This document shows, piece by piece, positions 4,277 through 57,532 of a stretch of DNA of 64,000 nucleotides. This stretch comes from Roridomyces roridus. Taxonomy: Eukaryota > Basidiomycota > Agaricomycetes > Agaricales > Mycenaceae. Position numbers and translations under genes: made by a program. The notes beneath the pieces were generated by a model, which had not been told where the DNA came from, made no database searches, and saw only the letters and a program-made list of their open reading frames with translations. Every line of letters starts with the position of its first letter. Position 1 is the first letter of the stretch. The stretch spans positions 372,001 to 436,000 of the forward strand of contig JARKIF010000023.1 of NCBI GenBank assembly GCA_029378245.1, read 5' to 3'.

Positions 4277-5105
4277 TATGGCGGTCAAAATGCACTTTTA
4301 ATCCAGCGCACCATTTTTTCACAAAAACAGTCCACACTAATTTTTCACTCAGAAATCAGTTTCCGCGCACCATTTCAAGTTGAAAAGTTTTTTAAAAATG
4401 GGGCGCGCGACGCGACTCGCGCGCGCTCCTTTGTTTTGACAATCGCTCACATGCGCGCTGTATTTTTGATGGCCGAGACCGGTCCAGACCCGCGCTCCAA
4501 TCTTTCGGTGTTAGTTTACCTTGACTGCGCGCGCTCCATTTGTGGTTTCAAATGCGCGCTCCATTTTTTCAACTCGTGGACTTGAGAAAATATTGCTGGC
4601 AAGGACGCTTCGGATCAACGGCCGGCTCATGATCACTGATGCCACCATCGGCACAATTACACTCAGGTCCCGTTTCCACCTCTCGAATGAAGCAAGTCAT
4701 ATCATTACTATATAGTATATATGCTGGAGTGGCCTACATTGTCTGGCAAGGCCGGGCACTCGGTGCCGAGATGCCGAGATCACGGCAATCTCGGCTTCCG
4801 CATGTTGAATTTGCCAAGTCCACAAGTGAGAAAAATGGAGCGCGCGCTGTCAAGTTAGTGCCCAAAGAATTGAGCGCGGGTCTGGACCGGTCTCGGTCAT
4901 CAGAAATGGAGCGCGCATGTGCACAAATGTCACAAGAAAATTGAAGAAATGGAGCGCGCGCGAGTCGCGCTGCATGCCCCAATTTTTTTGAACTTCTCAA
5001 CTTGAAATGGGGCGCGGAATAGCATTTTTAACCTAACATGGGGTGCGAAAGGCACTTTTCATGAAAATATGGTGCGCTGGATTAAAAGTGCACTTTGATC
5101 GCCAT
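4277..5105. mobile_element. Foldback / MITE-like element with ~310 bp inverted arms
   Basis: The left arm (about 4277-4590) and right arm (about 4795-5105) are imperfect inverted copies of each other. The outer ends match as TATGGCGGTCAAAATGCAC and, on the other strand, TATGGCGATCAAAGTGCAC. Both then continue with CTTTTAATCCAGCGCACCAT, with the CAAGTTGA...GCGCG blocks and with the shared run GACCGAGACCGGTCCAGACC in the same order. The core of about 200 bp (4590-4795) holds no convincing open frame. Long arms and the lack of coding capacity fit a non-autonomous foldback or MITE-type DNA element. I cannot see a clear target duplication, so the superfamily is open. GCGCGC-rich words repeat within both arms. 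Confidence 0.75.
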
Positions 5106-5698
5106 ACAACTCCCCTGCGCCCCGGGTAAGCATTTGAATTTCGAGGAGACGATAATCGAAGGCTTTCGAGGAGTCATTACATTTGTCTGGGCCCGGAGAG
5201 ATTGCGGGAAGATGCACTGATGCGAGGAAACGGGAACGCCGGAATAGAGAGGTTTCCTGTATCTTCCGAGTCTTCGGCTCAATGTAATCATCAATTCTCA
5301 ATGGATCGTATATTCAATCGGTGTTTTCTGGAGTGGAATAGGCCTCGGTTTCTTTCTGTCTTTCAATCGCCGAATAATAGTGCTGCCATCAGACCACCCG
5401 ATTGGCAACCAACCTGGCCATGACCGGGTTCGATTCTCGCTGATGGTAATGTGCCCCTCGGCCTCTGCCTTTTTTTCCCCGCGGGCCCGTCAAGTAACGC
5501 ACTCGAACCGGCCGAATGAATATTTTCCAGAGTTTGAGGAGATTCAGAGATTCAGGGGGATCACAAAGTTGGATCCAGTTTGATATCGCCAAACCCATTG
5601 GGGCTAGTATTCGAGAGAGGTGCCGATTTTCCGAACGATCGGATCGGCAAGAATCGGCAAGAATGCCCAAATCATAAGCTTCGGCTTGTTGTACTTAC
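5106..5698. other. No clear gene; tRNA-like B-box sequence
   Basis: No frame here has recognisable protein character. Around 5389-5450 a CCATCAG / CTGATGG pair brackets a sequence with a tRNA T-arm / Pol III B-box look (GGGTTCGATTCTC), followed by a T run at 5470. A related stretch (GGAGTTCGATTCCC...TGATGG, then a T run) lies at about 4205-4270, on the other side of the foldback element. The bracketed segment is too short for a functional tRNA. Confidence 0.4.
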
Positions 5699-5706
5699 TC
5701 ACTGAT
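5699..5706. other. Left copy of 8 bp target-site duplication (TCACTGAT)
   Basis: TCACTGAT abuts the outer end of the left terminal inverted repeat. The identical 8 bp stands at 22538-22545, just outside the right repeat. An 8 bp duplication is what I recall for Zisupton-type transposons. Confidence 0.7.
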
Positions 5707-6849
5707 CTACCCCCCCGGGGGCTTTGCTCGAGTATCCAGCATTTCGATGCGCATTCCACTCGAGCGCGCTGATACTTTTTAGCTAGATATACATTATGTA
5801 CTGCTAGTCACCCCAAGGTCGAGCGACACTCGAGCAAGGCAACTCGAGCGGCTCGAGCCACCCAATGCTCTACAATCCTCCACCAACCCACCATGATCAC
5901 CCCGGCTCGAGCGACACTCGAGCAAGGCAACTCGAGCGGCTCAAGCCACCCAAGCTTCTCCAATCCGCCACGGACCCACGTTCCTTGACAGCTCGAGCAA
6001 TCCCGCTCGAGCCAATCTTGTTAGTGATAGTCCACAAATAAAATAGGTCAACCTCGTAACATACCTGCACATCACACGGCTTGAGTACGATAGCTGGGTC
6101 GGCTCGCTTGAGCACGCCAGCTGCTCGAAGGACCCACTACTCGATCGGCTTGAGGCAGGGCCCAATACGGCTCGAGCCGCTCGAGCCGCTCGAGACTCAG
6201 AGCGACTCGAGCAGACAGATCCATGGCTGCGATTGCTCGAGCCAACTTCAGCCGGTGTTGTGCACGAAAAAATAAAAGTTGATCACGTACCAACTGGGCT
6301 CGAGCGGATCGAGAGACGACGCGTGTAGGTTCTCTCCGAGCGGCTCGAGCGGCGTTGAGATTGCTCCATCCGCAGTTTTTGAGGCTCCAAAAACTTGTAA
6401 AAAACAAATATGACGGAGAAGGATGGGGTGTATAACGCACATGGATCCCGGCAAGTGCGCATCCCACTCACGATGCACGTTCGGTGGCATCGACAAAGAT
6501 GCATCGGTGGCACCGTTGAGCATAGTATGCTTTCTGAATTTGTTAGTTCCATGACCCGTTGAGTTCTGAGAGGAAGCTTGCCTCATATACTTGGCGTGGC
6601 GAGTGGCGCAGCCGCCGCCACCAAGGTCTGTGTCAAGTCTGCGTTGATATCAGCCGCGGTGTATCACGGCTTGAGCGAGTGTACGTCGTGTGAGGGAGAG
6701 GTGAACATCGGTGTACCGAAATCGCGGTGTTGTGGTGGAGTGGACGAAGAGAGAGAGAGAGAAAGAGATGGCATGGACAAACAAATAACAAAGAGCAGTG
6801 ATCGGTCTTTTAGCACTGCCTCTCGGGCCTGTCGGACCTTTTCCATTTT
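5707..6849 (+). repeat. Left terminal inverted repeat of KDZ element
   Basis: This repeat pairs with 21375-22537 in inverted orientation. The outer end begins CTACCCCCCCGGGGGC and soon shares TTGCTCGAGTAT with the right copy. The inner end is marked by the run AGCACTGCCTC..GGCCTGTCGGACCTT...CCATTT. About 17 CTCGAG palindromes lie in the outer 650 bp. The inner half holds a GA-rich microsatellite (about 6750-6775) and short motifs shared with the right copy almost base for base. Confidence 0.85.
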
Positions 6850-7031
6850 AGGTCGACTCGACGCCACTGACACAGAAAAGGGAATTTTCGAGCAAAGTCA
6901 TTTGGGTACAATATTCATCATTTAGGTGCAAGAATGATAGAGTATAAACATGAGGTCGTGAGAGTCGTCACAATGTAATAGGAGGCAGGAGCGCAGATCT
7001 GGCAAGTCAAAGTCAATTCGCTGTCGTAGCA

Positions 7032-8057
7032 TAAGGTAGACGCAATACAAGTTCGGTTGCCCCACGTGATTCGCTGTGACTTTTACCATTTTGGGAAGCA
7101 AAGCAGAACTTCGGGATAAAACAATTTTTTGTGAATGCTCGAGGATGAAATTACAAAATCGGCCTCAAGGGTCCTCTGTAGATTGGTCCTAGATTGCTAT
7201 TCCCGGTTTTACATCCATAAAAAGTCCAAAATTGGAGGACTAGTTTCCAAAATACAGTCTCCAGCATGTGTAATCTCAAAGTTTCTTTGACTGTTGCCCT
7301 CGAAAAAATTCAATGGGTGTCTCCTTGGTATCTACTACATGCCTCAGCAAAAGAAAGCCGTCCGCGACAGGCTGAACCGCCTCAATGGCCTCTTAGCCTC
7401 ACCAAAGCGAGCCATCAAACGTGGGTTAATTGCCTTGAGTCCAGTCAAGAGCCCAGAGAAGAGGCCTGACAAAAGGCGCCGTGAGGACGATCTCGAGGAC
7501 ATCCAGAACCAGCCTTTGCGCTTCCTATTCCCAGCTGAATCCACAATTGACGCTTCTGACCCTTTTGACTAGCCAACTCCGGGTCCTGGCAGTGAATCTC
7601 CTCGGTTCGTACCCGTAACGGACTGCGAAGAAATGCCGCTTGATTCCATGCGCGCGTTCGTTCGTCGCGCTCATCGTTTTGCCGATGCATACCGCCAAGG
7701 ACTGGATGGCGCGCAAGCTGCCTGGGCAGCCAGAAAATACAGGGGACATCGTACACTGCCCGCAGAATTCAAAAAAGACATGATTGCAGCTGGGAATACT
7801 GCGAGGAGGGAACCAGAGTGCCGGTTTGTAATGTAGTACGACAGTAATTTGGAAACTAGTCCCTCAATTTTGATTTAAAAATCGTGAAAAAAATTGGGAG
7901 TACACTTGGGATGTATCTAGACAGGACCCTTGGGACCGATTTGCGAGCTTCCTCGTGAGAGCCTTGCAAAGGGTTGTCGACTGGTGTTCATTCCCAAAAA
8001 GGTCATCGTGACAATCACATCACGTGGGGCAACCGAACTTGTATTGCGTCTACCTTA
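7032..8057. mobile_element. Nested TA-flanked DNA transposon remnant (mariner/pogo-like ends)
   Basis: Inverted repeats of about 230 bp face each other: AGGTAGACGCAATACAAGTT at 7034 and its reverse complement ending at 8055, both continuing into CGGTTGCCCCACGTGAT. Both are flanked by TA. Farther in, GGGACTAGTTTCCAAA-like blocks match again in inverted order near 7240 and 7850. Two internal open pieces remain. One is at about 7339-7572 (MPQQKKAVRDRLNRLN...KRRREDDLED). The other is at 7633-7836 and ends with KKYRGHR-type basic residues (AWAARKYRGHRTLPAEF), which resembles parts of basidiomycete DDE transposase ORFs. No catalytic core is left, so this is an internally deleted copy. It sits in the 3' flank of the neighbouring cargo gene. 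Confidence 0.65.
7339..7836 (+). pseudogene. Remnants of a DDE-type transposase inside the nested element
   Basis: Two open pieces are separated by a stop at 7570. The first, from the ATG at 7339, encodes a basic segment ending in FPAESTIDASDPFD. The second carries PLDSMRAFVRRAHRFADAYR and KYRGHRTLPAEFKKDMIAAG. The latter word pattern (DAYR.GL.G..A.WA.KKYRGHR) is one I associate with transposase-like ORFs of mushroom genomes. The catalytic DDE region is absent, and the gene could encode only a short DNA-binding remnant, if anything. Confidence 0.35.
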
Positions 8058-8072
8058 TGAGCCACTCACTCT

Positions 8073-10840
8073 CTAGTTCTTCTTCTTGGGCGATTTCATC
8101 TTCATGGTTACCCACGACCCCTTCCCCGAGCGGCCCGATGTAACCTCTTCCATCTCTTCCTCCGACTTCTCTGGGGATGGCTGCTTGTCCTTCCGCAGCA
8201 ATCGCGTTGATGGCTGGGCGGGTGCTTTCACTCGTTGTTTCTTTGCGGGCGGAACCTGAGCCTGAGGTGCCTCGTCATCAAGGCGCCTCTTCGGGGGGCG
8301 TCCTCTCTTCTTGGGTACAGGAGCTGGTGCAGGTGAGGGTGTCCGCGAACGTGGAGCAGGGCTCAGGGGTGAGCATGGAGGTGACACGGGCGGGGCGGGG
8401 GGAGGGGATGCGGGAGAAGGAACTGGAGCACCACCACCGCTTGCTTTCTTGGCTTCCTTCTACCGAAGATCAGCACGCGCCATATGTGATACTTGGTGAC
8501 AGACTTACTGCCCGGGAAGCATCGTCTCCATCATCCTCATCGCTGGAGCTGGAGCTGGAGTTGCTCGAGTTGTTGGAGTTGCTGGAGCTGGAGCTGGAGC
8601 TGGAGCTGGAGCTGGAGCTGGAGCTGGTGGAGTCGCTGTCCGAGTCACTGTCAGAATCGCTCTTAGTCGTGTGCTTGCTTCCGCTCGTGGACATCTGGGC
8701 CGAGAGTGAGAACACGCTGCATATACTAGGCGGCTGACTGACCTTCCTGAGACCCTCGTCCTCGTTATCCGTGTCACTATCGTCGCTATCCGCGACCGTC
8801 TGCTTGCCACCACTCGCGGACTTCTTGTGGGTCTTTGGGAAGAGAATCAGAACGTGCGACATCCATTGGGCGGTCGCGTACCTTTTCACGACGATGACCC
8901 TTATCATTCTTTCCGCCGTCTGAGTGAGCCGCTTGCTTGCCGGATATCTGTACCGAGAATCAGAAACGCGCTGGATATAGTGGACGGCGCGCTGACCTTG
9001 ACACCATCACCCTCGTCATCTGCGTCACTATCGGTGTTGTCCGAGACCGCCTGCTTGCCACTGCTAGCGGAATTCTTGGTCTTGGTCTGTCGGAAGGAGA
9101 ATTAGAGCGCGCTACATACACTTGACGGCCGCGTACCTTCTTACGACGATTGCCTTCGTCATTCTTGTCGCCGTCTGAGCACGCCGCTTGCTTGCTACCA
9201 CTGATGGACGTCTGTAACGAGAATCAGAAACGCGCTGCATATAGTAGGCGTGGGGTTACCTTTTTGGGAACCAGATCCTTCACTACCTTCTTGCCATCCT
9301 GCTTGCTGCCCTTGGACTTAGCCAACCCCACCTTGCCGGCAACGCCCGCCGAGTCCTTCGCCTTCTTCTGCCGGGAAATAAGAACACGCTGCACAAATCA
9401 CGGCGGGCTTACCTTGTTGGATGCATCGCTCTCCGGGTTGCCGCTTTCTGTAGTCTTGGTCTTGGTGGAGCCAGCCAGGATGAAAGGTGATTCGTCATTT
9501 TCTCTGAGCTTTGAGAAATACGCCGCCAGCGTCACCAGCTCCACCGGTGACATCAAGTCGGGGTCTCGGAGAGCCACCGGCACCGAGAATCGCGTCTCAT
9601 CATAGGTCAACGCCTCCCATGAAATGGTCTGCTCTTTCCCGTGCAAATGATCTGGAAAAATATCAGCAAAGTAACATTCACAAGACGACCGCTTACGATA
9701 GAGCGCAATGAGATACGCGGTCAGGGGTCCGGCAAGCGCTGCAGCTGCCACGGCTCCTATCTCGATCCGCGGAAACAGTGGGACCCCTTTGAAGTACGGT
9801 ATTTCGATCTGGTTTGGTGTCGCCCGGTTGTTCTCGTTTTCTGATTTGACGTCAATATATGAGACTCAAGGCAGAATACCGACACACACCTGGGATCACC
9901 GCTTTGCAGAACGACATGAAATCGGTCATGACGATAGGCCACGACATAGTACTATGCTTATCGGCAAGGCGCCCCGTCCGATCTCCCCCATGCACGTGGA
10001 TCCTATACGTTGGTCAAAAGAATCCTTCCGGAGACGCGGGAAGACTACTCACTCAGCGGAGACCACGTTGCCACTGGGAGTGCGGAAACCGTATAGCAGG
10101 ATCATTTCCATGTCCCCGCACACCCCGCTTGCCGCCAGCGCTCTGGGCTGATCATCCATGAAGGGGCCGAAGTTATCCTGGTTTCCCTTGACATCGTTGA
10201 CCATGGCGGATGCCCTCTACCCGAATTCGTCTTGTTGTTGGGACGAGAGCGCGTTCCACAGCTCACCGAGGCAGGTCTGCCACAGCCCGATGCTTCTCAC
10301 CGCGCCGGCTGTGACCTTGTTGTCGACGGCGTCGCGGATGAGCCCTTCGCTTTCGTTCTCGAACAATTTGCGACCGGTGAGTTTGCCGCGGAGGAAGAGG
10401 GAGGATGAGGTGGAGGATGAGGTCTGGGCATCGGCGGAAGTAGCACCAGTAGGAGCGGCACGCACGTCCTTTCGTTGCCGCAAATTCTGAATCCTCTTGC
10501 GGATCTTGAGCTGCCAGTCCTTGGCCGCAAAGAGTGGACGGCCTTGGGCATCAACCGTCGGCTGGTCAAGCTTGGGGTCCGCCACACCCTCGCTGACCGC
10601 AGGTCGGACATCCGCAAAACCCTCCGACTCGAAGACCTGCACAGCAGTCTTGCGTATCCAGCCATTCAAGACCGTCGCGTCACCCTTTGCAAGCTGCTCC
10701 TTGTAGGAAGCGAGGTAGTTGTCGAGGATGTACTTGCTTTGAGCGGGGCTGAGCTGGGGACCGCCGGCGTGACTCTTCCGAGCCGTCCCTTCGTCGTCCG
10801 AGTCGCTGCTGACCTGCTTGGCGTCGTTCCGTTTCCCCAT
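8073..10840 (-). CDS. KDZ cargo gene A: acidic Ser-rich protein with AT-hook; in-frame TAG
   Basis: The start is the ATG at 10840 (MGKRNDAKQVSSDSDDEG). Exon 1 continues through a helical domain ending in LGELWNALSSQQQDEF, then meets an in-frame TAG at 10217-10219, after which the same frame goes on (RASAMVNDVKGNQDNFGPFM...LLYGFRTPSGNVVSAE). Downstream exons read STMSWPIVMTDFMSFCKAVI, IPYFKGVPLFPRIEIGAVAA and SWEALTYDETRFSVPVALRD, followed by small repeated exons rich in Lys, Ser and Asp. The gene ends in a poly-Ser/Asp tract, an AT-hook-like KKRGRPPKRR and a Lys-rich tail (KSPKKKN). This architecture resembles unnamed proteins common in agaricomycete genomes, but no function is known. An AT-hook suggests binding to AT-rich DNA. 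The TAG may inactivate it or be a sequence error. A TATA-like ATATATAT lies about 60 bp upstream. Confidence 0.6.
8541..8632 (-). repeat. GGAGCT hexanucleotide repeat encoding poly-Ser tract
   Basis: About fifteen imperfect GGAGCT/GGAGTT units on the plus strand are read on the minus strand as a run of serines with a few asparagines, followed by SSDEDDGDDAS. The tract lies in an exon of cargo gene A and is likely to vary in length between alleles. Confidence 0.8.
8690..9420 (-). repeat. Tandem exon-intron unit duplication in cargo gene A
   Basis: Exons of about 65-90 bp alternate between two types. Type A reads like ISGKQAAHSDGGKNDKGHRR and SISGSKQAACSDGDKNDEGN. Type B reads like SASSGKQAVSDNTDSDADDE and SASGGKQTVADSDDSDTDNE. 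The introns between them are about 50-60 bp and share a core of CAGCGCG(C/T)..TTCTGATTCTC before the acceptor. Both exon and intron have been copied, giving an A-B-A-B series. Confidence 0.75.
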
Positions 10841-12852
10841 AGAGGGAGAATGTAGTTTCTGAGAGAAAGAGAGTGTGAGTGGCTCAGCGTATGGAGAAGA
10901 TATATATGCTGAGACCGACCTTTATGCTCAGACCAGCCGACGCTTTGATTTGGCTACGCTTTGCTGCCACTCCTAGCGCTTGGGTACGTGCGTGCCGATG
11001 ATAAGCATGGAATTTGACTGCCCTTGAAAACGCGCGTTTTGCACGATTTCAGAGGTAGTATCCTAGCTAAGTCATCTCAGTACAAGACTGATGTTGAGCC
11101 CAGAGACAGTCAGTGTGGTGGATACTTAAGAGTACTGTACGGGTTGAAGGGTATTTACCTGAATATGAACGACGGGCTCACTCCGAAACATGTAGGAGTT
11201 GTGGATACCTGCTCTACCAATGGGATACACCAATTAAACAAGTTCTTAACCGTTGTACGATTGTCAGCCGTTCGAGCCTTGGTGCGAGTGCAATTCGGAG
11301 GTTCGGAAGTTCACGGGATGATGGGCAAGTCGGCCGAAAAGCCTGAAACATGAGTAGACCGCCGAAGCGGGTCCGAAGGGAGTGACGTAGTTGTCATCAG
11401 CAGTCGGGACAAGGAGGATCCGGGTCGGATACTAGTCTTCAAACTAGTATCTGCTGGTATCCGGGACAGGTAGTCGGAGATATGGGTATCGTTCTGGACC
11501 TACAACCTATGGGCGTACGTCTGGAGGGTATACAATCAAGGGAGAGGTCGGATACGACTTCACTAAAATCAGTCGAGTCATGGATCAATGTTGGAGTCAC
11601 GGATCGACAGGTCCGCCACGCGGAATCATGGCTTGGCACACCGGCCGTACACGATGCCGGTTCTGATCAACCAATCAGGGTGTTTCCATTCCAGATACCA
11701 AGGATATTTTTAATTATTGCGCCATTCGTTTGTACTATCATATGATTCTCGGACCTGTATAAAGTAGATAGAGTGCTACCCAAGAGGGCAGCGGATACTT
11801 CCCCCACTAGCAAGCTACCAGCTGCGATCAAGGGTTTTGTCCGAGGCTTTCGACGGTGCATTGCGTAGTTAAGCAATCGCTATTGAAAATCTAAACATTT
11901 GTTTGTTGGCTATTGTGTGTGTGACTTGAGTGTGAATCAGTGTGTTGGAATCAGTATCTGTTGGATTGTGTCGTACCGTGTGTCTGTCAAGGGTTATTTG
12001 TGTGTTCAGAGTTGCGAAGTGTTGGAATCTACGAAACCCGTGTTGTATCGGTCGCTGTCGTCTTCGGATACCAGTGTAAAAGGGATCGAGAGACCCAAAT
12101 ACCTGCTTTATTGCAAAACCCCGGCTTTAGCCAAACTCAATCTATCTTTTGTGTCAGCTGTGAAGCTTTACCATCTACAAAACGCTTTAGAATCGTCATT
12201 CTTGGTTTACCTCAAGGATCTCTATTCGCAATACTTTGTTTCGACATCGTATCCGAGACTATATCACCCAATTCCCTACAACATTTACAAGGCCCTGTAC
12301 TAGGGACTTATACTCGCCACATTCCCGCTATTCAATAGTTGTCACTCGCCCCGGAGCTTCGTGATTGGGTTAGTTGGATATAGATTCGTCTGTATCTCGA
12401 CTCATCTGGTTAGATTCTTCGAGTGTTGTCGATTTCTATAGTAGGTTTAGAGCACATACATCACCGAGATGCCCCCTAGCAACGTCATCATCAACTCGCT
12501 GGGTGGAGGGCGTGGCGAAGAGCAGGGCCACCGATGGCGGGGTGGGAGGATTGCGGTGTGAGGCAAGCCGCCAGCGGTGTTGGGGGGGCGGAATTATGAG
12601 GAGGATGGAATCACGGCGACGACAAGCCATGCCGAGCAACGTCAGCGTCAGCTCGCTGGGGGGAGGGCGGGACCACTGCTGTCGCATCGTTGGTGGCAAG
12701 TTGGTGGCAAGAACTAGTCAGTGTTGTCACGTGGGACTGTGTCCCAATTGGGAGAATCGAGTCCGACACAAGTCACACAACAACTTGAAGATTGGGTATC
12801 CCTTGAATCTAGCACTGCTATACTAATTGTATTTTTATTAGCAACTTGAAAC
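10841..12852. other. 2 kb between cargo genes; LTR-like sequence, no clear gene
   Basis: No frame shows conserved protein character. A TATAAA-like box (GTATAAAGTAGATAGAG, about 11758) followed by T/G-rich leader-like sequence recalls a long terminal repeat, and a TGTTGAGCCC at 11091 could be an LTR start. I see no matching end, target duplication or reverse transcriptase, so this stays a guess. A 36 bp imperfect direct repeat lies at 12477-12512 and 12634-12669. Confidence 0.3.
12477..12669. repeat. Imperfect direct repeat (AGCAACGTCA..CTCGCTGGG)
   Basis: The segment 12477-12512 recurs at 12634-12669 with a few substitutions: AGCAACGTCATCATCAACTC versus AGCAACGTCAGCGTCAGCTC, both followed by GCTGGG.GGAGGGCG. 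The spacing is 157 bp. It lies in GC-rich DNA between two cargo genes. Confidence 0.6.
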
Positions 12853-14812
12853 TCAGTCCATCTTCCGACGCTTTCCCTTGCCATCATCAACGTCTGAATT
12901 AGCCTCCCTTGCCTTTCTCTTCCTTTCGACTGACTTGACCACGGAAGGGAGGGGCGGCGGCGACCAATCTACAAAATATCAGCGCTGAATTCATGTGGGT
13001 ATTTGATGATCGCTTACCATCAGACATGTCTTCCAGCGTGGTTTTCGAAGAAGATGCCTGGGGCGGTTTTTCATCTATAGCAAGGCCTCGTGAAAATAAG
13101 TCGCATGGGGAGTAGCTGGACGTCACTTCGAGACCCACCTTCCGACCGTCGTGATCAGTTTCGAGCGGGATCTCAAGATGGCGACTCACCTGGTGCATTC
13201 TTCTTCTGGTCTTCTGCCGACGCCTTCTTCTCCCACTCATCAATCCCAGGGCACACGGAGCGCGATAGCCCGACTCTCTTGTAGATAACATACTGACCCT
13301 TGAATTCCAGATTGAGACCCTTGTCCATTGGTACATAATCATCCTGGGAAGTAGCGTAGCGCTCATATTGCCCCTGCGCGCAAGGCTTGGGCAACCGGTA
13401 GTCGTTAAATCGGAAGCAGGCTTCCTTCGGTGCAGACAAGAGTGTTGAAAAGGGAGCGGTGTTAGCGGCATGGAAGATGACCCCCCGGAAAATCCGACCT
13501 ATTCGCTGTAGGTTAGTACATGTCACAGTGATGCACGATGACGCACTCTTGTCCTCCTTGAACTTCTTAGTTGGCATGATAATGAGTTCTCCACCCACCC
13601 CATCAGCGACAGGCTCCTTGTCCCGCTCGCTGCCGGAGGAGACTGACGTGATTGAGGCGGCTCGGCGCGCGAGGGCCTGAAAATTTCATGAGCGCATGCA
13701 TAACAAATCATATAATAGTGAACCTACGGTGACTGGAGGTTTTCGGAGGCAACACACGCGCCTTGCCCTTGACTACCATGAACGTCTGTCAGAAGAAGTA
13801 TATAGTCACAACAAATAGAGGACGCACCTTGAGCTGCTTTGGACGCCCCTGAGTGGCTCCGCTCACTGCCGGAGGAGGCGGAGGTAATTGAAGCGGCTCG
13901 GCGCCCACGGCCTGAGAATCGTTGCGTCTGTTCGCATACGCAATGAATATGAGAGAGAACACACCTGAGGTCTTCACCGGCGATGCACGTCTCTTGCCAT
14001 TGCCCTTCGCTGTCGTTTACATCCGTCAGAACAATGAATCACGCAGGATGGAGAACGCACCTTTGGACGTCTTCACTGAGACTGCGCTCTTCTTAGACGC
14101 GCCTGCATGTGGAGTTTAAGAAAAAGAACGTAATCACAGACCGATCACTTGCCTGCAGCTCCTTTCGCTTTGGTTCGTTTGGTGGTTCGGAAAACTGCCC
14201 AAAGCGAATCAGAGAAATGCCCGCAGATAATAATAATAAGCTATTGGGCGTACCTTCGGGGGCGACAGGAAGATCATCAGTGTCCATCCTATCCAAGTAC
14301 GTTCTCGCCGATTGATAGCTCTTGTCTGTGTCAAAGCTGAGTCTTGAAATTGTTAATTGGTTTGTTCACGTACTGATCTTTGTGACCGCCCTCTTCGGCA
14401 GATCCACTATGGTGCCACGCCTCTGCAGGGAGCTGAAAGCCTTCTCCGCCTTCTCCAAACCCGACACCAGGGCTTCAAGATCAGCGCGGACGGGTCGGTA
14501 GTCGTCAAGCATTTCGCTCAACTGGTCCTGCAACTGAGCGGCGGGTGCTTCTCCACGTTCTGTGCGACAATGTGGCGGATCTCCGATGCAGACACGCTCC
14601 CAGACACCCAGCCGATCGGGATGTTTCTGGCCCATGGAAACCTGCCATAGATGCCTGTTCGTGCACGTTGTCTCGGGTGGTGGGAAGTCGTCGCGGTGAG
14701 GGTCCCCCACCACGTCGCGCACCAACGTCTGGAAGGGAGAATCGGAGGGTTTGATGGGAGAATCATCGCAGCGGTTCGCTTCCAGAGTGGATTTCGCTTT
14801 CTTCTTCGCCAT
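12853..14812 (-). CDS. KDZ cargo gene B: basic multi-exon protein of unknown function
   Basis: Translation starts at MAKKKAKSTLEANRCDDSPI (ATG at 14812). Exon 1 carries a helical segment (QLQDQLSEMLDDYRPVRADL...LEKAEKAFSSLQRR). About eight short exons follow, mostly basic and Pro/Ser-rich (for example KSAVSVKTSK, AKGNGKRRASPVKTS, PLQLPPPPPAVSGATQGRPK). A longer exon near 13190-13510 (IGRIFRGVIFHAANTAPFST...QYVIYKRVGLSRSVCPGIDE) looks folded. The end is VKSVERKRKAREANSD then GKGKRRKMD at the TGA at 12853, a likely nuclear localisation signal. One intron (after KRKELQ) appears to use a GC donor. I recognise no domain. The position between cargo genes A and C on the same strand suggests that all three belong to the element. 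Individual splice sites are by eye. Confidence 0.6.
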
Positions 14813-15041
14813 GGTCAAGAGTAATTCGAGATGGGGACAGTGGTTTTTTGAAGTAGTTTCTACGCTCCTTATACGCGATTGACACGGGATTGTTCTGAAG
14901 CAGCAAAAGATGCGATCGACGCACCTTCCTGGTGAAGTAATTGTTTGAATTATTCAGCGCCTTCCTTCGTTAAACGACGATGGTCTTACATACGAGAACA
15001 AAAAACAATTATGACATTGGCTAAACGTCAACTCGTTCTAG

Positions 15042-15479
15042 TTATGCGGCACTGGAAGCTTCACAGTCCACCAGCTCCGGAATGTTCTCGTCGTCGTCGT
15101 CCAGCGCGGTGGTCCCGGCCCCATCCACCTTTGCGGCGCGCTGCTCATCTACACGACCCTTGAAAGTGCAGAGATATGGGCACGAATGATCGTAGCTGGA
15201 GGAAATCAGCGGATAATCCAGCACTTGTGAATATGTGTACGAAATAGTTGTATGGTAATGCAGATCCCGGAGCGCCGCTTCGGGAACGGCAACAGCTTGA
15301 TATTTCTCACCGCGGGTGATATCCCAATACATCTCGACGCTTTTGCCGTGCCAGGCGGCCCGCTCCGCCTCTGTTGCCGCGAACTGGGGTTGCTGCGTCC
15401 GGGGGTTGTGGATGCTGTCCTTCGGATTGAGGGCGCCATCGGGATTCTGTTGCTCGGGAGAGGACGAATTCGAGGTCAT
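15042..15479 (-). CDS. KDZ cargo gene C: 145-residue protein of unknown function
   Basis: This is a single-exon frame from the ATG at 15479 to the stop at 15042. The N-terminus is polar (MTSNSSSPEQQNPDGALNPK), the middle is aromatic and reads AWHGKSVEMYWDITRGEKYQ and YHTTISYTYSQVLDYPLISS, and the tail is acidic (DDDDENIPELVDCEASS). No signal peptide or membrane segment is seen. I do not recognise the family. The gene is co-oriented with cargo genes A and B, 230 bp upstream of B's start. The coding call rests on a clean frame with plausible composition and on its place in the element. Confidence 0.55.
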   Translation of the reverse strand: MTSNSSSPEQQNPDGALNPKDSIHNPRTQQPQFAATEAERAAWHGKSVEMYWDITRGEKYQAVAVPEAALRDLHYHTTISYTYSQVLDYPLISSSYDHSCPYLCTFKGRVDEQRAAKVDGAGTTALDDDDENIPELVDCEASSAA

Positions 15480-15666
15480 GGTGGTATTGTCTGAGTTTGC
15501 AATCCAGAAGCGGCCCTACTTGTTTTGTGCGATCGATCATGCTGAACAACATTGTTGGTTTGCCAGGTTGTTTAGATATTATAACAAAAGGCTCGCTTGC
15601 GACACACCTTCTCTACGATCGTCAGAACAACACAACCAGCCAAAGTCCGCCGATGACCACATTGCA

Positions 15667-16257
15667 ATGTCTACGTTCAGACAAGGAGCCCCGACGGCAG
15701 CGTCAGAGGCGAGTAAGTTGGAGAGCAAGGAAGGGGGAACGAAGCCCAGTCGGATGTGGAAGGCAAGAGAGTCAGACATATGGTGGAAGTCTGGGAGACG
15801 TTTATCATCATCACTTTGATACGGCGCACGGACCCTTTCCCGAATCGGATCTCCGAGTCGACACCAAGTGCTTCCGCGGAACATTTGAACATTTTGAGCC
15901 GACTGTGACTCCGCAATCTTCTGTTTCCATTTGTACAACATCGTTGAAATCGTGAGTGGTCGTTACTCGTTATCAAGAGCGTAATACATCAGAGGATTGT
16001 GCTAATAGTCAGAGTCCGAAGACTCAGCTGCGGTCGGAACCGGTACTGATCACACCACCTACCGTCACAAAATCCGGCATATCTCATTCAATCCAGATTC
16101 AAATCCCTTCGTCCAACACAGCTACACCATGTTTGGAACCCCCGCCACACGCCCCCGCAACTCGGGAAGCCATCGGACGCAGTGCGGTCCCGCCGTGCGT
16201 CACTGCATCTCTCCGTGTCCCCGTCATTCCGACCAAATTCGGCTACACGGATAGTTG
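15667..16257 (+). CDS. Doubtful small gene in KDZ element
   Basis: A possible two-exon gene starts at MSTFRQGAPTAASEASKLES (15667) and reads on through KPSRMWKARESDIWWKSGRR. After a break with stops, an open piece at 16018-16257 encodes a Pro/Ser/Thr-rich tail (SEPVLITPPTVTKSGISHSI ... VIPTKFGYTDS). An opposing minus-strand frame of 120 codons overlaps the first exon and cannot be excluded. I recognise nothing in either. Treat as a placeholder for the interval between cargo genes C and D. Confidence 0.25.
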
Positions 16258-16397
16258 ACGACGTCTTCCTTGAATTTTGTTGTGCAGACAGTTTATCGTC
16301 GTATCCATGATTTCAAGTTTGTAGTTTCTCGATTAAATTCAGCACGCTTTGAAATCACGCTTTGGTTGATCCAGTAGCTTGGACCAGAACCGTCCGG

Positions 16398-16406
16398 TAT
16401 AAAAGG
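16398..16406 (+). promoter_or_regulatory. TATA box of cargo gene D
   Basis: TATAAAAGG stands 50 bp before the ATG of the gene at 16448, a normal core-promoter distance if transcription starts about 20-30 bp downstream. It supports that ATG as the start. Confidence 0.55.
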
Positions 16407-16447
16407 TATACCGTACGCAGAGGCTCTCCGAATTCTCAATCTCACCC

Positions 16448-17092
16448 ATGCTGAGTACCGTTCTTACCATACTTCGATACCACGATCCTCAGAATGGGGA
16501 AACAGCTGGGGAGCCGGCAACGCCTCCATCACCGCAGCAGAGAGAGCTGGCACTGTTTCCACCACTCAGCCCTCTATCCTGCGCACACAGTCCACCACCA
16601 GCGTCTCCCCCTCGCGAGGAGACACCCCCTTCCCCTCCTCTTCCTCATCCGTCGAGCCCTCCGCGCAGAGTGACACGCAGGCATGCCGCTCTCAGCCCAT
16701 CGCCATCGAGTCCTCCTCGAACTTTGAAGCGCAAACGCGCCTCTGAGTCGTCGAGTCCGGCTCCAAACATTCCCACTCATAAGCGTAGCCGCAAGCGCTC
16801 CGCTTGTCTCGTGGCGTGGCTGGCTGATGACACGGAGCCGGTCTATATCTTCCTGCCTACCACTGACCCGGACAACAAAATTTGTCTTGCGGATCACAAG
16901 GTGGAGCTAGGGAGTTTTTCATTGGAACAGGGAGCAGGGCTGGAGAAATTTCAAGTGGGCGAAGAACGTTGGGAGCGGGTTAGGTGGGCAACCCCTCTAA
17001 TCCTCCGGGAGGGGACTCAATTTGCGGTGCGTGTGAGAGGTGTGACGAGGATGAAGAACTGGGAGCTGTATTCGCAGGAATTTGACTGTTAA
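16448..17092 (+). CDS. KDZ cargo gene D: Pro-rich basic protein with C-terminal folded domain
   Basis: This is a 214-codon single exon. Residues 20-95 are low complexity, rich in Pro, Ser, Thr and Glu (SPPPASPPREETPPSPPLPH). A basic stretch follows (LKRKRASESSSPAPNIPTHK, then RSRKRSACL), likely a nuclear localisation signal. The last 85 residues look folded and mostly beta: ACLVAWLADDTEPVYIFLPT, CLADHKVELGSFSLEQG, EERWERVRWATPLILREG and FAVRVRGVTRMKNWELYSQE. The stop comes right after EFDC. I do not recognise the family. It is encoded just upstream of the transposase on the same strand, with its own TATA box, so it could be an accessory DNA-binding or targeting factor. That is an inference from position only. 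Confidence 0.6.
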   Translation: MLSTVLTILRYHDPQNGETAGEPATPPSPQQRELALFPPLSPLSCAHSPPPASPPREETPPSPPLPHPSSPPRRVTRRHAALSPSPSSPPRTLKRKRASESSSPAPNIPTHKRSRKRSACLVAWLADDTEPVYIFLPTTDPDNKICLADHKVELGSFSLEQGAGLEKFQVGEERWERVRWATPLILREGTQFAVRVRGVTRMKNWELYSQEFDC

Positions 17093-17467
17093 TGTTTTAA
17101 TCTACGTAGATCTACGATAAATTTACCAGCTTACTGTAATCCAATCTCATCTACATCTGCTTGACGTACATAGACAATTGAGATGATCGGCTTTAGGGTT
17201 AGGGTCAAATCATCCTTCTTGTCGACCACAACAACTACTCCCACATACACTCTCGACTGAGCTGACGACGACGTCGCTCTTACACTTGAATTGACATAGG
17301 CGTCATTAAAAAAGCCAGAGCCCAGGCTGACACTTAAGGGAAGCAGATCTGGTGAGCGTTGGTGCTCCGCCGTATACGGTATTACTTCAACTGAGACAGT
17401 CCCGTCTAGCTGTAATCCAAAGTATTGTTGGTTCCAAATGGCCGTCTCAAACTCACAGATTCATTAG
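17093..17467. other. Spacer between cargo gene D and the transposase
   Basis: There is no coding signal. It holds a palindromic ATCTACGTAGATCTACG near 17100 and two telomere-like TTAGGG words at about 17193, which are too few to mean anything by themselves. It presumably carries the transposase promoter, though no TATA box is obvious. Confidence 0.4.
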
Positions 17468-20400
17468 ATGTTCCAGCTAGGCAAACGAACCAAGCAGAAG
17501 AAGAGGGCTGAGGCAGACGTGGTCGAGCATGTGGACCCAGATCTGGTGGAACACCGTATCACAACGGACGCTGGCACATCATCCCACACCGTATACATCC
17601 CAAGCGCCAATCCCGGCGTTGTTCTGAAGAAACTCGAGGAGAAAGCTGAATCACCACCCGAGGGTTCGACGCCTACGAGACCTTCTCAGGTGTGTGGTGT
17701 ACGCCTACATATAAACACTGTGCTGATCATTCTGCGAAGAACTCTGAGGTACTCCAGCAATTCAAGAAAATGAAACCTTTCTTGCTGAAGTCGATACTCG
17801 ATCGCGAGGCCAGCCCCGTCTTTGGGACGGTCTGCGAGTGCGGAAATGGTCTGTGCGAGGTCACCTGCCACAACTGCACCCAATATCGACCTTCGTGCAA
17901 ACCGTGTTTCATCCAACGGCATCGTACCTGTCCATTCCATTGGGTAGAGGAGTGGGACGCAGAGAAGGGATTTCTAGAACGCCGGGACATATCGGCGCTC
18001 GGCCACGCGATCACATTTGGCCATTACGGAAGCGATTGCTGTGTCACGTCCCCGGAAGACGCCAAAACAATGATTATCGTGGACGTCACCGGGATCCATA
18101 CCACAAGTGTCATATTCTGTCGACACGACCACGCCTTCAGCAAGCACAACCCAGATGACCGGAGTGCGTCTTGGGACCAGGTCGGGTTGCTTCTCGACGC
18201 TGGGTTGTTTCCGTGTTCCTACGCGAATCCACGGACTGCGATCACTTTCGAATGTCTCAAGATGTTCGAGATGCTCAGCATGGAAGGCAAGCTGTCCAAC
18301 TACGACTTTGCAGTCTCATTGCGCCGACTGAGCAACAACTCATTCACGGAGGATGTTTCGGTACGTCAGAGATCTCTATGAGTAACAGGCGCCTTACGCT
18401 CGCGCAGGACGTGGAGGAGAATCTCATTCGCACGGCACGGTTGTGGGGAGTGCTGACCCTGGCCAAGCGACTTGGACAGGAGCACGGTATCGACGAATTT
18501 TTCCCTTTCCGTCCGAACGACAACTTGGTGCTCTACTGCCCGACCTGCCCCGAGCCGGGATTCAACATGGACCCAAAGATCGGCTCGCTGCCATCGGAGC
18601 TAAGGTCAGCTTTATTCGGGGAGTTTTGTGTTTCCTGACAATTGTTTCCTCTGGAAGACATCTCGTTCAGCAGCGTGATACACTGGACGGAAACTTTCAC
18701 TGCAACAAGGCAAAGAAAAATACGGACCCGAACGACGTATCTCTCTTTGCGGGCAAGGCATATTTCCCTTCGAGTGATGTGCTTAGAGAGTACCTGGGGC
18801 GACATCGGGGAAAGACAGATGAGCCAGTGCGTATACTCATGGCAATTTGGCTGTTCGTTACTCAATATGCCGTTAGACCTCAACTTGCAATCACCTGAAG
18901 GCGGTCAAAAATCAGAACAAGAAGAAGTTCAAGAACATGGAAATTACGGGCGTGGTGAACGTTCAGTGCAGCCACGTCTTTGTCAAAGTGTCGGTAGATC
19001 TTCAGTTTGGCGAGCGGTGAGCAATGCCATTGCTGTGTTCGACGATTGGCAATTCAATTATTTTAGGTTCTGCAGTGTCGATTTTGCACTTGCGCATGCT
19101 TTAGATCAGAAGCTCGCCGCCGGCTACACAGGGGATGTTACCTTCAAGATTCACGTCGGTAGTGTGGATCACATTCTATCCTACGACTCGATGTGTCAAT
19201 ATAGTGTTCACATCATCGATCGCTTCAAGGCCGACCCTAATCTGCAGCATTTGGTACCGATCGTCAAGCAGATGCGGTTCGCCATTCCAGCGCTGCATGT
19301 CCAGGGGCATCAAGACGGCTGTATGTATGTATACGCGACCGTGTACATGCAGGCGACCGCGCACTTCCACGGCGAGACTGCGGAACAGTATTGGCCTGAG
19401 CTGAATCAACTCGGGCCTCAAGTGCGGCAGATGAATGGGGGGCACCGCCAAGACACGATTATCAAGCACCATAGCGACTGGAACTACAAGAAATTGGCTA
19501 AAGCTGGTTCGTTGTGTTCCATGGACTCGGCCCAAACTAATTATTTCATTTAACAGTTACTCTTCTTGTACGCGAGCTGGAAACAGGCGACGAACTGTTC
19601 AAACGACACCGTACCGTATTCTTGGGACTGTCTGCATCATATGCAGACCGTATCGACAAGGAGGGTTGGCGCACACTCGACCGCACACCGGATTACAACA
19701 ACATGAAAGATGTCAAGAGCGTTTACAGGATGAAAGCTTCCAAAGGTCGGTTTCCAACGAAATGCAGCATAGTTGTTAACTCTGTGTAGTTCCGACACAG
19801 AGCACCATATACAAGAAGATGCTCAGTGACGAGGCGCAACACGCTGCAGCCCAGTCGGCGATCTCCCTCGACAAGAGCAAGGTCGCCTTTGTCCTCAATG
19901 AGGGCTTGAAGATTCAGGCTTTACAGTGCGTGCTGAGTTTTTTTTTGCTAATTCAGTATGAAATTTACGACTCATCAGGAGAGAGATCCGAGCAGCTATC
20001 AAAGCAAACGCCGCACACGAGTTGCTCTCAACACAGAAGACCATCACCGAGATGCGCGTCAAGGCATCTGCACGCATAGCCAAACTTCGAAAGGTGCAGG
20101 TGCTAGTCGTGCCTGAAGTTTTGGAGGAGCTGGGGAAGAGGGAGGCGTCCGATGTGGAGACGGTGATTTTGGGGTTGCCGTCCGACTTCACTGATACATC
20201 GGAGCGCGTCAAGCTCGGCCTGAACGCGCTGGTCGCGGTGGAGACGCAATTGCGAGAAGGCCAAGCCTTTGATGCGATGAAACAAGTCAAGGCCATCGCG
20301 GCGTCCATCTCTGCATTGCAAATCAACGGCCAGAAGAACTCAGGTGGAATTACGAGAAACAGCATCTCGTTGGAGGGCATCCAAACTACCAAGGCACTGC

Positions 20401-21315
20401 TCAACAAGTGGATTGGGGAGTACAATAGTGCGCGAAAGGCGATGATGGTCCTCGGACACTCGACCGGAGGGCAAGACTTCCCAGAGCTGAAGGAAGCAGA
20501 TACGTATCGCAAGCCAACGGGCCGTCGACAACTGGGTGATTCGCGACGGGTGGATGGAGGGGCATGGGCGATTCGTCGCGGAAAAAGTGGAGCGACAGTT
20601 GCCTCATCATCTGGGGCCCGGGTTGCAGTTGAAGGAACTGCGAGCACGAGAGCGAAATCTGGTATAGTCCTGCGGCTGCCTTCTCTGAATTAAAGCCCAC
20701 TGTTTGTTTCCAAGGATCGTCGAGAGCGCCAGCTACTCAAGCCGAACAGAAGAACGGCTGGATTTGGGAGGGGAAGCTGGGGAAGATGACTGCGCAAGAA
20801 CTCGACGAGTGGAGCCGTGAAGGTTAGTGAACAAAGCACATTCATCCTCGGAGAACTCATGAATCGCAGCGAATCGCGTGCAATGGTTCCGCGCGGAGGC
20901 TGAGATGATGAGGCAGTTGGAGCTGGTAGAGGCGAAACTCGCGGAGATACGGACGACCATCCGAAGTTTTGAGGCGTATCATGATGTTTGGACCAAGATC
21001 GCAGGGGCGCAAGAAGAGGCAAATCCCAAGCACGCAGGCCACATTGCTTACGCCAAGCAAAAGGCATGGATGTTCGGCCAGCGGGCGGCGCGAGGACGCG
21101 AAAGGCTCAGGCTGACAAATTACCCCAGTTTGGCTGAGGAAGACGCCGACTTGGTGGGATTTGTGTCCGCGAGGAGGAAGGAATACGAAGAAGAGCTTGC
21201 GGGCATTCTCAAAGAGGAGAGGGCGCGGAGGGCCGAGTCAACCGGGGATGAGGATGGGTGGATGGATGTCGACGATGACGAGGAACTTCAGACCGGATTC
21301 GTACCATTAATATAA
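17468..21315 (+). CDS. CxC2-KDZ transposase (Kyakuja-Dileera-Zisupton family)
   Basis: About twelve exons encode roughly 1,090 residues. Exon 1 starts MFQLGKRTKQKKRAEADVVE (17468). Exon 2 carries the CxC2 cysteine cluster that accompanies KDZ transposases (VCECGNGLCEVTCHNC, CKPCFIQRH, CPFHWVEEW). Next come YCPTCPEPGFNM, then LDGNFHCNKAKKNTDPNDVS, then FKNMEITGVVNVQC. The RNase H-like core follows, with LSYDSMCQYSVHIIDRF holding an expected catalytic Asp and HFHGETAEQYWPELNQL a Glu. C-terminal helices (IASQRAVDNWVIRDGWMEGH; WFRAEAEMMRQLELVEAKL) and an acidic tail close at 21315. The enzyme should cut and rejoin the element's ends. No premature stop is seen if a small intron is placed near 20447-20498. 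The gene ends 60 bp before the right inverted repeat. The join near 20660-20715 is the least certain. Confidence 0.88.
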
Positions 21316-21374
21316 AACAAGCGTGAAACGTTTGCAACGAGCGAGTCAGACTCAGAGTGATCTTGGAGTTAGAC

Positions 21375-22537
21375 AAATGGAAAGGTCCGACCAAGGTCCG
21401 ACAGGCCGAGGCAGTGCTAAAAGACCGATCACTGCTCTTTGTTATTTGTTTGTCCATGCCATCTCTTTCTCTCTCTCTCTTCGTCCACTCCACCACAACA
21501 CCACGACTCCGGTACACCGACGTTCAACTCTCCCTCACACGACGCACACTGGATTTAGCCGTGCTACACAGCGGCTTATATCAACGCAGACCTAGGTGGC
21601 GGCGGCTGCGCCACTCGCCACACTCAAGTATACGAGGCAAGCTTCCTCTCAGAGCTCAAGGGGTCATGGAACCAACAAATTCAGAAAGCATACTGTGCTC
21701 AACGGTGCCACCGATGCATCTTTGTCGATGCCACCGAACGTGCATCGTGAGTGGGATGCGCACTTGCCGGGATCCATGTGCGTTATACACCTCATCCTTC
21801 TCCGTCACATAACTTATTTGTTTTTTACAAGTCTTTGGAGCCTCAAAAACTGCGGATGGAACAATCTCAACGCCGCTCGAGCAGCTCGGAGAGAACCTAC
21901 ACGCGTCGTCGCTCGATCCGCTCGAGCCCAATTGGTACGTGGTCTTGTATTTTTTCGTGCACAACACTGGCTGAAGTTGGCTCGAGCAATCGCTTTGAGT
22001 CTCGAGCGGCTCGAGCCGTATTGGGCAAGGTGCGTGAATTGGGCAAGGCGTGGACCATGACACATTGATTTGCAGGCTAACAATACTAAGCCGATCGAGC
22101 CGTGGGTCCTTCGAGTCGCTGGAGTGCTCGAGCCGACCCAGCTATCGTACTCGAGCCGTGTGATGTGCAGGTATGTGACGAGCCCGACCTATTTTATTTG
22201 TGGACTATCACTAACAAGATTGGCTCGAGCGGGATTGCTCGAGCTGCTCAAGGAATGTGGGTTGGTGGAGGATTGGGTTGCTCGAGCTGCTCGAGTGACT
22301 TGCTCGAATGTCGCTCGAGCTGAGGGTGATGAGGGATGTAGGTTGGAGGATCGGAGAGCATTGACGGCTCGAGTGGCTCGAGTTGGCTTGTTCGAGTGCC
22401 GCTCGAGCTGGGGGTGACCGGTAGCATACACTGTATGGCTAGTTAAAAAGTACCAGTGAGCTCGAGCAGTACTCGAGCGGCTCGAGTGGAATGCGCATCA
22501 ACATGCTGAATACTCGAGCAAGGACCCCCGGGATTTA
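21375..22537 (-). repeat. Right terminal inverted repeat of KDZ element
   Basis: This is the inverted counterpart of 5707-6849, with high but imperfect identity. About 19 CTCGAG palindromes sit mainly between 21880 and 22515. Near the inner edge the copy carries a short extra GGTCCGACCAA-like duplication not seen on the left. The outer end reads CTCGAGCAAGGACCCCCGGG, followed by ATTTA and then the direct repeat. Confidence 0.85.
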
Positions 22538-22545
22538 TCACTGAT
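22538..22545. other. Right copy of 8 bp target-site duplication (TCACTGAT)
   Basis: It is identical to 5699-5706 and lies just beyond the right inverted repeat. Together the two mark a plausible insertion site for the whole 16.8 kb element. Confidence 0.7.
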
Positions 22546-54244: not shown

Positions 54245-55438
54245 CTATTCTCTGTCAAGCCCGTCGACTTTAACCACCCCGCATTCTCGCAGATCACCCA
54301 TCTTGAGCTGTTCGACCAAGATCTCGACCTCGCTACATGGTCCGGCCTCACATCTACTTAGGGCTGGGCACCGTACCGTAACGGACACGGCCGTCACATC
54401 ACGGCCCGTAAAATGGAAGCAGATATGGCTGACGGTACGGCACGGTTCCGTATACGGCCGTATTTCCGTAACACGGCCGGAAATTGATGGTGAGTGCTTT
54501 CTCTGATTTCCTGCGTGAATATGACTATTGAACACTGGATTCATCAGCTCCTCGAGTCTAATTGACTCTTTCCGCTCATAACCACCCTCCTCGCGCAAAA
54601 CATCGTCTGGAAACATCTGCCGCCGTCGACTTTGATAGGTGATGGCACATTGATGCGTTGATGGCGGCTGCCGTAAACATCAGCGATGCCCGCCGCAACC
54701 CGGGCAAGCCCGCCCACCCACAGGAGAAGCTATGTAGAATCTCGCACGCCCTGTTGAATCAATTGGTGAGAGCATTCTGACGCAAATCTACCGTGCCGAC
54801 GCTGTTGAGAAGAGATTGCCGAGGATGGCCGTATTACGGCCGTAACGGCCGTGTTTACACGGGAAATACGGCACACGGCCGTGTTGGGTACGGGCCGTAT
54901 GAACATCACTACCAGGGGCCCCGGCACGGCACCGTATCCGTATTACGGAGCCGTATTCCGTGTGATACGGTTACGGTGCCCAGCCCTACTCACATCCATC
55001 CCAAATCCATCCCCACCCAACGCATCTCGCATTCTCCGAAGTGGAAGTCATCGTCATATTCCCTGACCTGCTACACATGTGTCCCCCCCTCTGTGCGTTC
55101 TGGCACTTGTCCTGACGTACGAACAAGAACGGCGAGATGCGTCGTGCATGTCGGATGAGCTCGTGCGAGACATGCGGTTCGTGTGGATGGTATGTCGGAT
55201 GTATATGCGCGATTGGCATCATGGTGCGCTTACTGGGCGTGACTATTGGACGAGGGCGGAGGATTTCAGCGCTCAGCGTCGGGCTGGGCAGATCGATGGT
55301 ACGTCTGCTGCCACTTCTATTGTGAGTGATTTTGATCCTTGTTCCCAGCGATGCAGTTCTGGTGAGGGGATGGGGATGAGAGCGAGCAACTTCCGTGATG
55401 CAGGATCGTCGGGTCCGGCTTCTAGACACAGGCTTTGA
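54245..55438 (+). pseudogene. F-box protein C-terminal part, interrupted by a transposable element
   Basis: Before the insertion the plus strand reads PVDFNHPAFSQITHLELFDQ and then DLDLATWSGLTS. After it come HLAFSEVEVIVIFPDLLHMC, VLALVLTYEQERRDAS and the typical F-box-family ending MRFVWMVCRMYMRDWHHGAL, TGRDYWTRAEDFSAQRRAGQ. These are the HLELFD / W..L / LTHLSF / DPRFV-type blocks of agaricomycete F-box LRR proteins. A 634 bp element sits between the two parts (54355-54988). One base too many in the CCCC run after it also breaks the frame, and no N-terminal F-box is found upstream. The gene is therefore broken in at least two ways. Confidence 0.65.
54355..54988. mobile_element. hAT-like MITE (ends AGGGCTGGGCACCG)
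   Basis: The right end is the reverse complement of the left: AGGGCTGGGCACCGTACCG at 54360 and, at 54988 on the other strand, TAGGGCTGGGCACCGTAACC. Further in, both arms are dense in ACGGCCGTxxTACGG palindromes. The 8 bp CTCACATC stands on both sides (54347-54354 and 54989-54996). An 8 bp duplication plus T/CAGGGCTGGGC-type ends is typical of hAT elements. The core of about 330 bp has no transposase, so the copy is non-autonomous. The left side has four extra bases (TACT) between duplication and repeat, a small irregularity. Confidence 0.7.
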
Positions 55439-55582
55439 AATTATATTCCGTCCTCCATCCCACCCTCTGCACTACTTATTGGGGACATGATAATACTCAA
55501 GACAACGGACGTAGTTATTTCTTCAAAGACCTTTATCTATCTCGCAGTTGCAACGAGTGAGGGTTCTCAATCCTCACCAGTC

Positions 55583-56859: not shown

Positions 56860-57307
56860 TCGATCCTATTCATTTAGCGTGAGTTTTTTTATCTTCCTCC
56901 ACGCAGGGATCGCGTGTTCCCTCGTCATATTCTCGACATATGCACACACGTAGACACACGTGCATGGTGGGTGATGACAAGACGCAAAAAGATTACGTGA
57001 GCACACGTGTCGCTCTCTTTGATCCGCATATCAGACCACTGTTCCGGGATTGGCTGTCATTTCGACATCTGAGCCTTGCATCGACTTGCATCGACGGAAG
57101 ATAAAATCTAATAGCATCGGCATATCTGACAGTACTGGGGTTAAGTTCGGCGCCTCGCACTTACCGATCTGGCCGCAGTGGTACGATGTTCGGATCTTTC
57201 GGCATCTCGGCCACTCAACATGAATAACATTGACACGAAAACCAGGTAACAAAGAGTAGAATTCAGTAGAATAAACGATTTTCTCGTCACCCGTTTCGAA
57301 TATACCG
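56860..57307. other. Intergenic region
   Basis: Nothing assignable. A minus-strand frame at 57031-57324 has no family likeness and overlaps the end of the Cys-rich exon. ACACACGTAGACACACGTG near 56943 is a short repeat. Confidence 0.35.
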
Positions 57308-57531
57308 CTAGTTAGAGCAACCACTCGGACGGTTCGAAAGACACTGGGTGGTGCAGATGCCGTTCAAATTGGTGTTGCGAGTCAAACCGGAGATATCATT
57401 GCCGCCGCAATCGTTCAAGACGTCGTTTGCTGCGCTGACTAGGTCCAGCTGGATGAGCCCAGAGACGGCGTTGGCCCAGCTGACGCAGCACTGATTCCCA
57501 TTGACCGTCTGGCAGATGGAGCGCGGGGAAG
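57308..57531 (-). CDS. Small secreted-type Cys-rich protein, last exon
   Basis: The minus-strand exon runs from a TAG acceptor at 57532-57534 to the stop at 57308-57310. It encodes SPRSICQTVNGNQCCVSWAN, LIQLDLVSAANDVLNDCGGN, ISGLTRNTNLNGICTTQCLS and NRPSGCSN. The eight cysteines, the CVSWAN block and the NG(I/V)CTTQCLSNRP ending recall small secreted proteins found in many mushroom genomes, for which I know no function. The signal-peptide exon is not found: a 1.85 kb element begins exactly at the splice acceptor. Since the element's own end keeps a TAG acceptor, splicing to this exon may still be possible. Otherwise the gene is dead. Confidence 0.6.
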
Positions 57532-57532
57532 C

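Follow-up and report, generated by a model that had tools for sequence, protein, structure and literature searches.

A 16.8-kb KDZ-superfamily element with kilobase inverted ends and further candidate genes in Roridomyces roridus

The stretch of DNA analysed here (the window, 64,000 nucleotides) is C146:372001-436000 in an assembly of 90.8 Mb and 501 contigs from the mushroom Roridomyces roridus (Mycenaceae, Agaricales). Near its left side lies an element bounded by kilobase terminal inverted repeats, which encloses a CxC2-KDZ transposase gene, five further candidate genes (g1 to g5) and two nested insertions (Table 1). Taken together, the inverted repeats, an empty site, related short copies and the transposase indicate with high confidence that this element is a KDZ-superfamily DNA transposon, complete and possibly autonomous.

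Table 1. Features of the R. roridus element in window coordinates
Feature	Position	Strand	Description
Whole element, very probably a KDZ transposon	5707..22537	.	16,831 bp; repeats, target duplication, empty site
Left target site duplication TCACTGAT	5699..5706	.	single copy at empty site on C185
Right target site duplication TCACTGAT	22538..22545	.	single copy at empty site on C185
Left terminal inverted repeat	5707..6845	+	1,139 bp, begins CTACCC; 16 CTCGAG in outer 600 bp
Right terminal inverted repeat	21393..22537	-	1,145 bp, begins TAAATC read inward; 17 CTCGAG in outer 600 bp
CxC2-KDZ transposase	17468..21315	+	11 exons, 1,116 residues, uninterrupted by stops, identical to public protein P0001
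Candidate gene g1	8073..10840	-	multi-exon; TAG in frame at 10217-10219; tail rich in Ser and acidic residues, with KKRGRPPKRR
Candidate gene g2	12853..14287	-	multi-exon, hand-made model
Candidate gene g3	14366..14812	-	one exon, 148 residues from ATG; tool-called open reading frame begins two codons earlier at TTG
Candidate gene g4	15042..15479	-	one exon, 145 residues
Candidate gene g5	16448..17092	+	one exon, 214 residues
Nested 1,030-bp insertion	7030..8059	.	inverted ends CATAAGG..CCTTATG, AG duplicated on both sides
Nested young repeat	10999..12463	.	1.47 kb, TG..CA ends, CCGA on both sides

Borders of the element and an empty site

The two inverted repeats were found by comparison of the window with itself. 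Aligned end to end, they shared 991 identities in 1,088 aligned columns (91%), with a further 108 gap columns, and 14,547 bp lay between them, in agreement with a preliminary description of this DNA, which had placed kilobase inverted repeats 14.5 kb apart. Directly outside each end is the 8-bp sequence TCACTGAT. This 8-mer occurs nine times in the window, both strands counted, and is by itself weak evidence of a target duplication, so the decisive evidence for the borders of a mobile element came from an empty site on contig C185 (38,139 bp), where a whole-genome search with the flanks showed both of them meeting at one TCACTGAT. Specifically, C185:69-616 matched window 5107-5706 while the window from 22538 onward matched from C185:609, one TCACTGAT being common to the two flanks, and the joined flanks aligned through the site without a footprint. 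The 8-bp duplication and precise borders of the preliminary description were therefore borne out, as was its suggestion that an empty site with a single TCACTGAT be sought, the site being present in the same assembly. These results also bear on the possibility that there is no mobile element here, i.e., that a chance or segmental inverted duplication happens to be flanked by a chance 8-mer. The nine occurrences of TCACTGAT in the window favor such an explanation, but it is contradicted by the empty site at the exact borders and by separate insertions that have these two ends together with duplications of their own, and we regard it as extremely improbable.

To the right of the empty site, C185 was 99.6% identical to the window over 7.3 kb and 99.8% identical over the next 1.9 kb, and the last 4.1 kb of the contig were 98.4% identical to window 54683-58851, in a comparison that covered C185 on either side of C185:10001-34000. 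Identity to the left of the site was 89.7% over 601 columns, of which eight were mismatches and the remainder gaps. C185 thus appears to represent the second haplotype of the locus, with an insertion that is polymorphic within the assembly, and the many KDZ domain matches in the genome that form equal-scoring pairs point the same way. At least 160 such matches were noted (best 150 of 209 candidates scored), and equal-scoring pairs are expected if both haplotypes were assembled. Mobility of the element is suggested by the insertion polymorphism.

Other differences between C185 and the window were seen as well. An 830-bp repeat with inverted arms at window 4277-5106, which is absent from C185, constitutes a second insertion polymorphism adjoining the element, and most of the 95 genome matches listed for the left-flank query were to this repeat. 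Conversely, approximately 257 bp in C185 (L045 7890-8146), located between pieces that match window 29825 and 29822, are missing from the window at the corresponding place.

Transposase, terminal sequences and related copies

The transposase encoded in the window, when spliced, is identical over 1,116 residues to P0001 (hypothetical protein FB45DRAFT_841586 of R. roridus). Exons placed by hand had given a model of 1,103 residues, and comparison with P0001 moved one exon start upstream to 18877. In the 1,103-residue model, a KDZ transposase domain (PF18758, E 1.1e-36, residues 355-576) and a CxC2 Cys cluster (PF18803, E 6.8e-23) both passed the Pfam cut-off, and a KDZ domain scan of the genome matched window 19164-19484. 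The gene is thus stop-free and, as had been proposed, full-length, although it ends 77 bp rather than 60 bp before the right inverted repeat. Homologs at E ≤ 0.001 numbered 83 proteins among 7,747 candidates, P0001 counted; most of them bear Mycena names, and the best from another species, at 55% identity, was that of Favolaschia claudopus. Positions that were invariant in all 22 of the aligned sequences (22 of the 83) include D455, D490, E553 and E556, acidic residues among which the catalytic ones may lie. A sequence search of the PDB returned a single match (E 0.2), which was taken as chance.

The related short copies carried the same two ends. One, at C13:964684-966973 (2,290 bp), has CCTCGCCA on both sides (8 of 8 bp), and the other, at C279:349421-351621 (2,201 bp), is flanked by ATTCCGCA and ATTCCGCG (7 of 8 bp); both are probably non-autonomous relatives within the same KDZ family. 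Since each of these copies has one end of each kind, the unlike outermost bases of the left and right ends (Table 1) do not appear to result from decay of one copy. Both ends are dense in CTCGAG in their outer 600 bp, whereas no more than three occurrences per 600-bp stretch were found elsewhere (stretches taken at 20-bp steps across most of the remaining window). The 19-mer TTGCTCGAGTATYCAGCAT, with up to two mismatches allowed, was present at 11 places in the genome, including seven that were ends already known, as compared with two places for a control pattern. Weaker terminus-like places were noted on four contigs (C334, C335, C57 and C394); in comparisons of 1 kb each, C335 contained a 61-bp match to the right terminus and C334 no terminus match at E ≤ 1e-4. 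From the distribution of CTCGAG, we consider the chances about even that its arrays, lying within 600 bp of either terminus, are recognised by the transposase.

Several observations weigh against a complete and mobile element. The left and right repeats show 9% divergence besides numerous gaps, and movement is deduced from the polymorphism. A search of the genome with the ends found no second full-length copy. C201 has a left end alone, and C223 and C23 have right-end pieces alone, their far sides having been looked at within 7 kb. The lone left end (C201:374750-376782, L010 2750-4782) belongs to the same family, is interrupted by approximately 670 bp and diverges into other DNA at a position that matches window 7034, adjoining the start of the nested insertion in the window copy.

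Further candidate genes and nested insertions

The region between the left inverted repeat and the transposase gene contains g1 to g5. Within 8062-17200, eight ATG-to-stop frames of at least 435 nucleotides and two of at least 600 nucleotides were counted, compared with means of 0.74 and 0.11, respectively, in 200 dinucleotide shuffles of the same region; none of the shuffles had two frames of at least 600 nucleotides and only one had four of at least 435. When scored by the codon use of the transposase, the proposed frame was the best of six in each of seven pieces from g1 to g5, the margin over one opposite frame being small in the case of the g1 first exon, g3 and g4. The KKRGRPPKRR tail of g1 is a motif that we take to be AT-hook-like.

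Not all results were favorable to these genes. An in-frame TAG interrupts g1, and a homolog search with this protein (X placed at the stop) found none at E ≤ 0.001 among 7,999 and 8,000 candidates preselected by shared words, which is weak evidence. Only four of the eight frames of at least 435 nucleotides correspond to proposed ones (the g1 first exon, g3, g4 and g5), while the remaining four overlap proposed genes or g2 in other frames or sit elsewhere. The codon score of the best frame of g5 was slightly below zero. When long open reading frames of the window were used to train a simple gene finder, it called g4 and, split in two, g1, missed g2, g3 and g5, and called a plus-strand frame at 8177-8737 that overlaps g1. 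Thus, the claim of at least four non-transposase genes holds to the extent that five candidates are present, but one has an internal stop and only some were called by the gene finder.

Two insertions within the element account for approximately 2.5 kb, leaving a core of approximately 14.3 kb. The insertion at 7030-8059, which may be Plavaka-like by its 2-bp duplication alone, holds an open frame starting MPQQKKAVRDRLNRLN that had no Pfam match. The repeat at 10999-12463 had at least 39 other matches in the genome at 95-99% identity (best 40 of 202 candidates scored), including a copy on C257 with CCGG on both sides, and was read as a probable young solo long terminal repeat. Accordingly, the earlier view of a large gene-carrying unit is correct as to the 16,831-bp length and the further candidate genes, while part of that length belongs to the nested insertions. 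These insertions, along with the in-frame stop in g1 and the failure of the gene finder to call g2, g3 and g5, would be expected of a decaying relic, i.e., a KDZ core that gathers unrelated insertions and in which g1 to g5 are mostly chance or dead frames. This explanation is at odds with the stop-free transposase, the presence of both ends, the polymorphism of the insertion within the assembly and the two frames of at least 600 nucleotides against a shuffle mean of 0.11, and was judged unlikely.

No Pfam family above the cut-off was found in g1 to g5, a match of g1 to DUF7155 being far below it, and searches of the R. roridus genome with the first 207 residues of g1 and with g3, g4 and g5 returned self-matches only. 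A similar search with most of g2 returned its own exons and a weak relative at C279:61375-61653 (24% identity over 92 positions, E 5.8e-4). This relative (L060 1878-2153) lies beside a long frame starting MGGFTADVTIASELFRAKLPFWLVRP (L060 2587-3963), with which it may form a repeated gene pair; the neighboring long frame was unrelated, and none of the element's other candidate genes had a match within 4 kb. Because the searched parts lack both a close paralog in the same genome and a Pfam family above the cut-off, g1 to g5 look like genes private to the element rather than recently captured host genes, a reading that we moderately favor and that replaces the cargo of the preliminary description. 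That some of these genes were captured from the host or a foreign source and, as with Starships, confer a trait on the host is suggested by the presence of five candidates besides the transposase. The Pfam and own-genome results just described argue against such a vehicle, as does the absence of anything of known host function recognised among g1 to g5, and we think it improbable. Element-private helper or regulatory genes are thus likelier than either host cargo or dead frames.

Comparison with known elements and significance

KDZ and TET elements were reportedly the subject of a 2014 paper in PNAS. Work on transposons of R. roridus, or on KDZ repeats of kilobase length, did not appear among the papers listed in a literature search, although absence of such papers is not proven. 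The suggestion that this is an undescribed system was not sustained, since KDZ transposons that have inverted repeats together with 8-bp duplications are already described in PMC12810828, and ones that have an extra gene in PMC12730594. According to the former, Cryptococcus neoformans KDZ1, KDZ2 and KDZ3 are approximately 11, 9.2 and 10 kb long, their inverted repeats measuring 241, 139 and 169 bp, and have a CxC1 domain and duplications of 8 bp (KDZ1) or 4-8 bp (KDZ2 and KDZ3). The R. roridus element shares with these a KDZ transposase with a Cys cluster, terminal inverted repeats and, in the case of KDZ1, the 8-bp duplication. It differs in its length of 16.8 kb (core approximately 14.3 kb), in having CxC2 and five further candidate genes, more than are described there for the Cryptococcus elements, and in its repeats of approximately 1,140 bp, nearly five times the length of those of KDZ1.

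Inverted repeats and 8-bp duplications are also given for Zisupton in PMC12730594, a 2025 paper which states that Zisupton had until then been the only KDZ group well characterised for both features. The same end structure was found in the window copy (8 of 8 bp), the C13 copy (8 of 8) and the C279 copy (7 of 8), each with terminal inverted repeats, a likeness in end structure. Kyakuja elements of Agaricomycetes likewise have a KDZ transposase in mushrooms. As described in section 3.2 of PMC12730594, however, they have 7-bp duplications and CA..TG ends and lack inverted repeats, and the present element, with its 8-bp duplication, CTACCC/TAAATC ends and 1.14-kb inverted repeats, does not match these Kyakuja families. 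Starships of Ascomycota, as far as the sources at hand describe them, are also fungal mobile elements with several genes but are classified by a tyrosine recombinase, in contrast with the KDZ transposase and inverted repeats seen here. Neither a tyrosine recombinase captain nor a TET/JBP dioxygenase was matched in Pfam scans of nine proteins or pieces, which cover part of the element. Within the known KDZ family, what is unusual in the R. roridus element is the combination of very long end repeats with several further candidate genes, and a gene-rich architecture with CTCGAG-packed kilobase ends was not described in the portions of PMC12730594 and PMC12810828 available to us.

In the mechanism that we propose, the transposase would cut at the element ends, with insertion then following at an 8-bp stagger. 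It would recognise each end through the CTCGAG array of the outer 600 bp, and g1 to g5 might act in regulation, in helping transposition or in escape from silencing. More tentatively, the element might represent a Mycenaceae KDZ lineage whose private module of several genes encodes, among others, an AT-hook-like nuclear protein, and in which the CTCGAG-packed kilobase ends form a multi-site platform for the transposase and the two ends differ in function.

A mushroom KDZ element is now available with its ends placed to the base, a target duplication and an empty site. The R. roridus genome is rich in KDZ domains, yet, according to PMC12730594, Zisupton was the only KDZ group whose inverted repeats and target duplications had been well characterised before that paper. 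The asymmetric, CTCGAG-dense ends and the putatively private genes of this element would provide concrete parts for testing DNA recognition by KDZ transposases and the roles of their extra genes.

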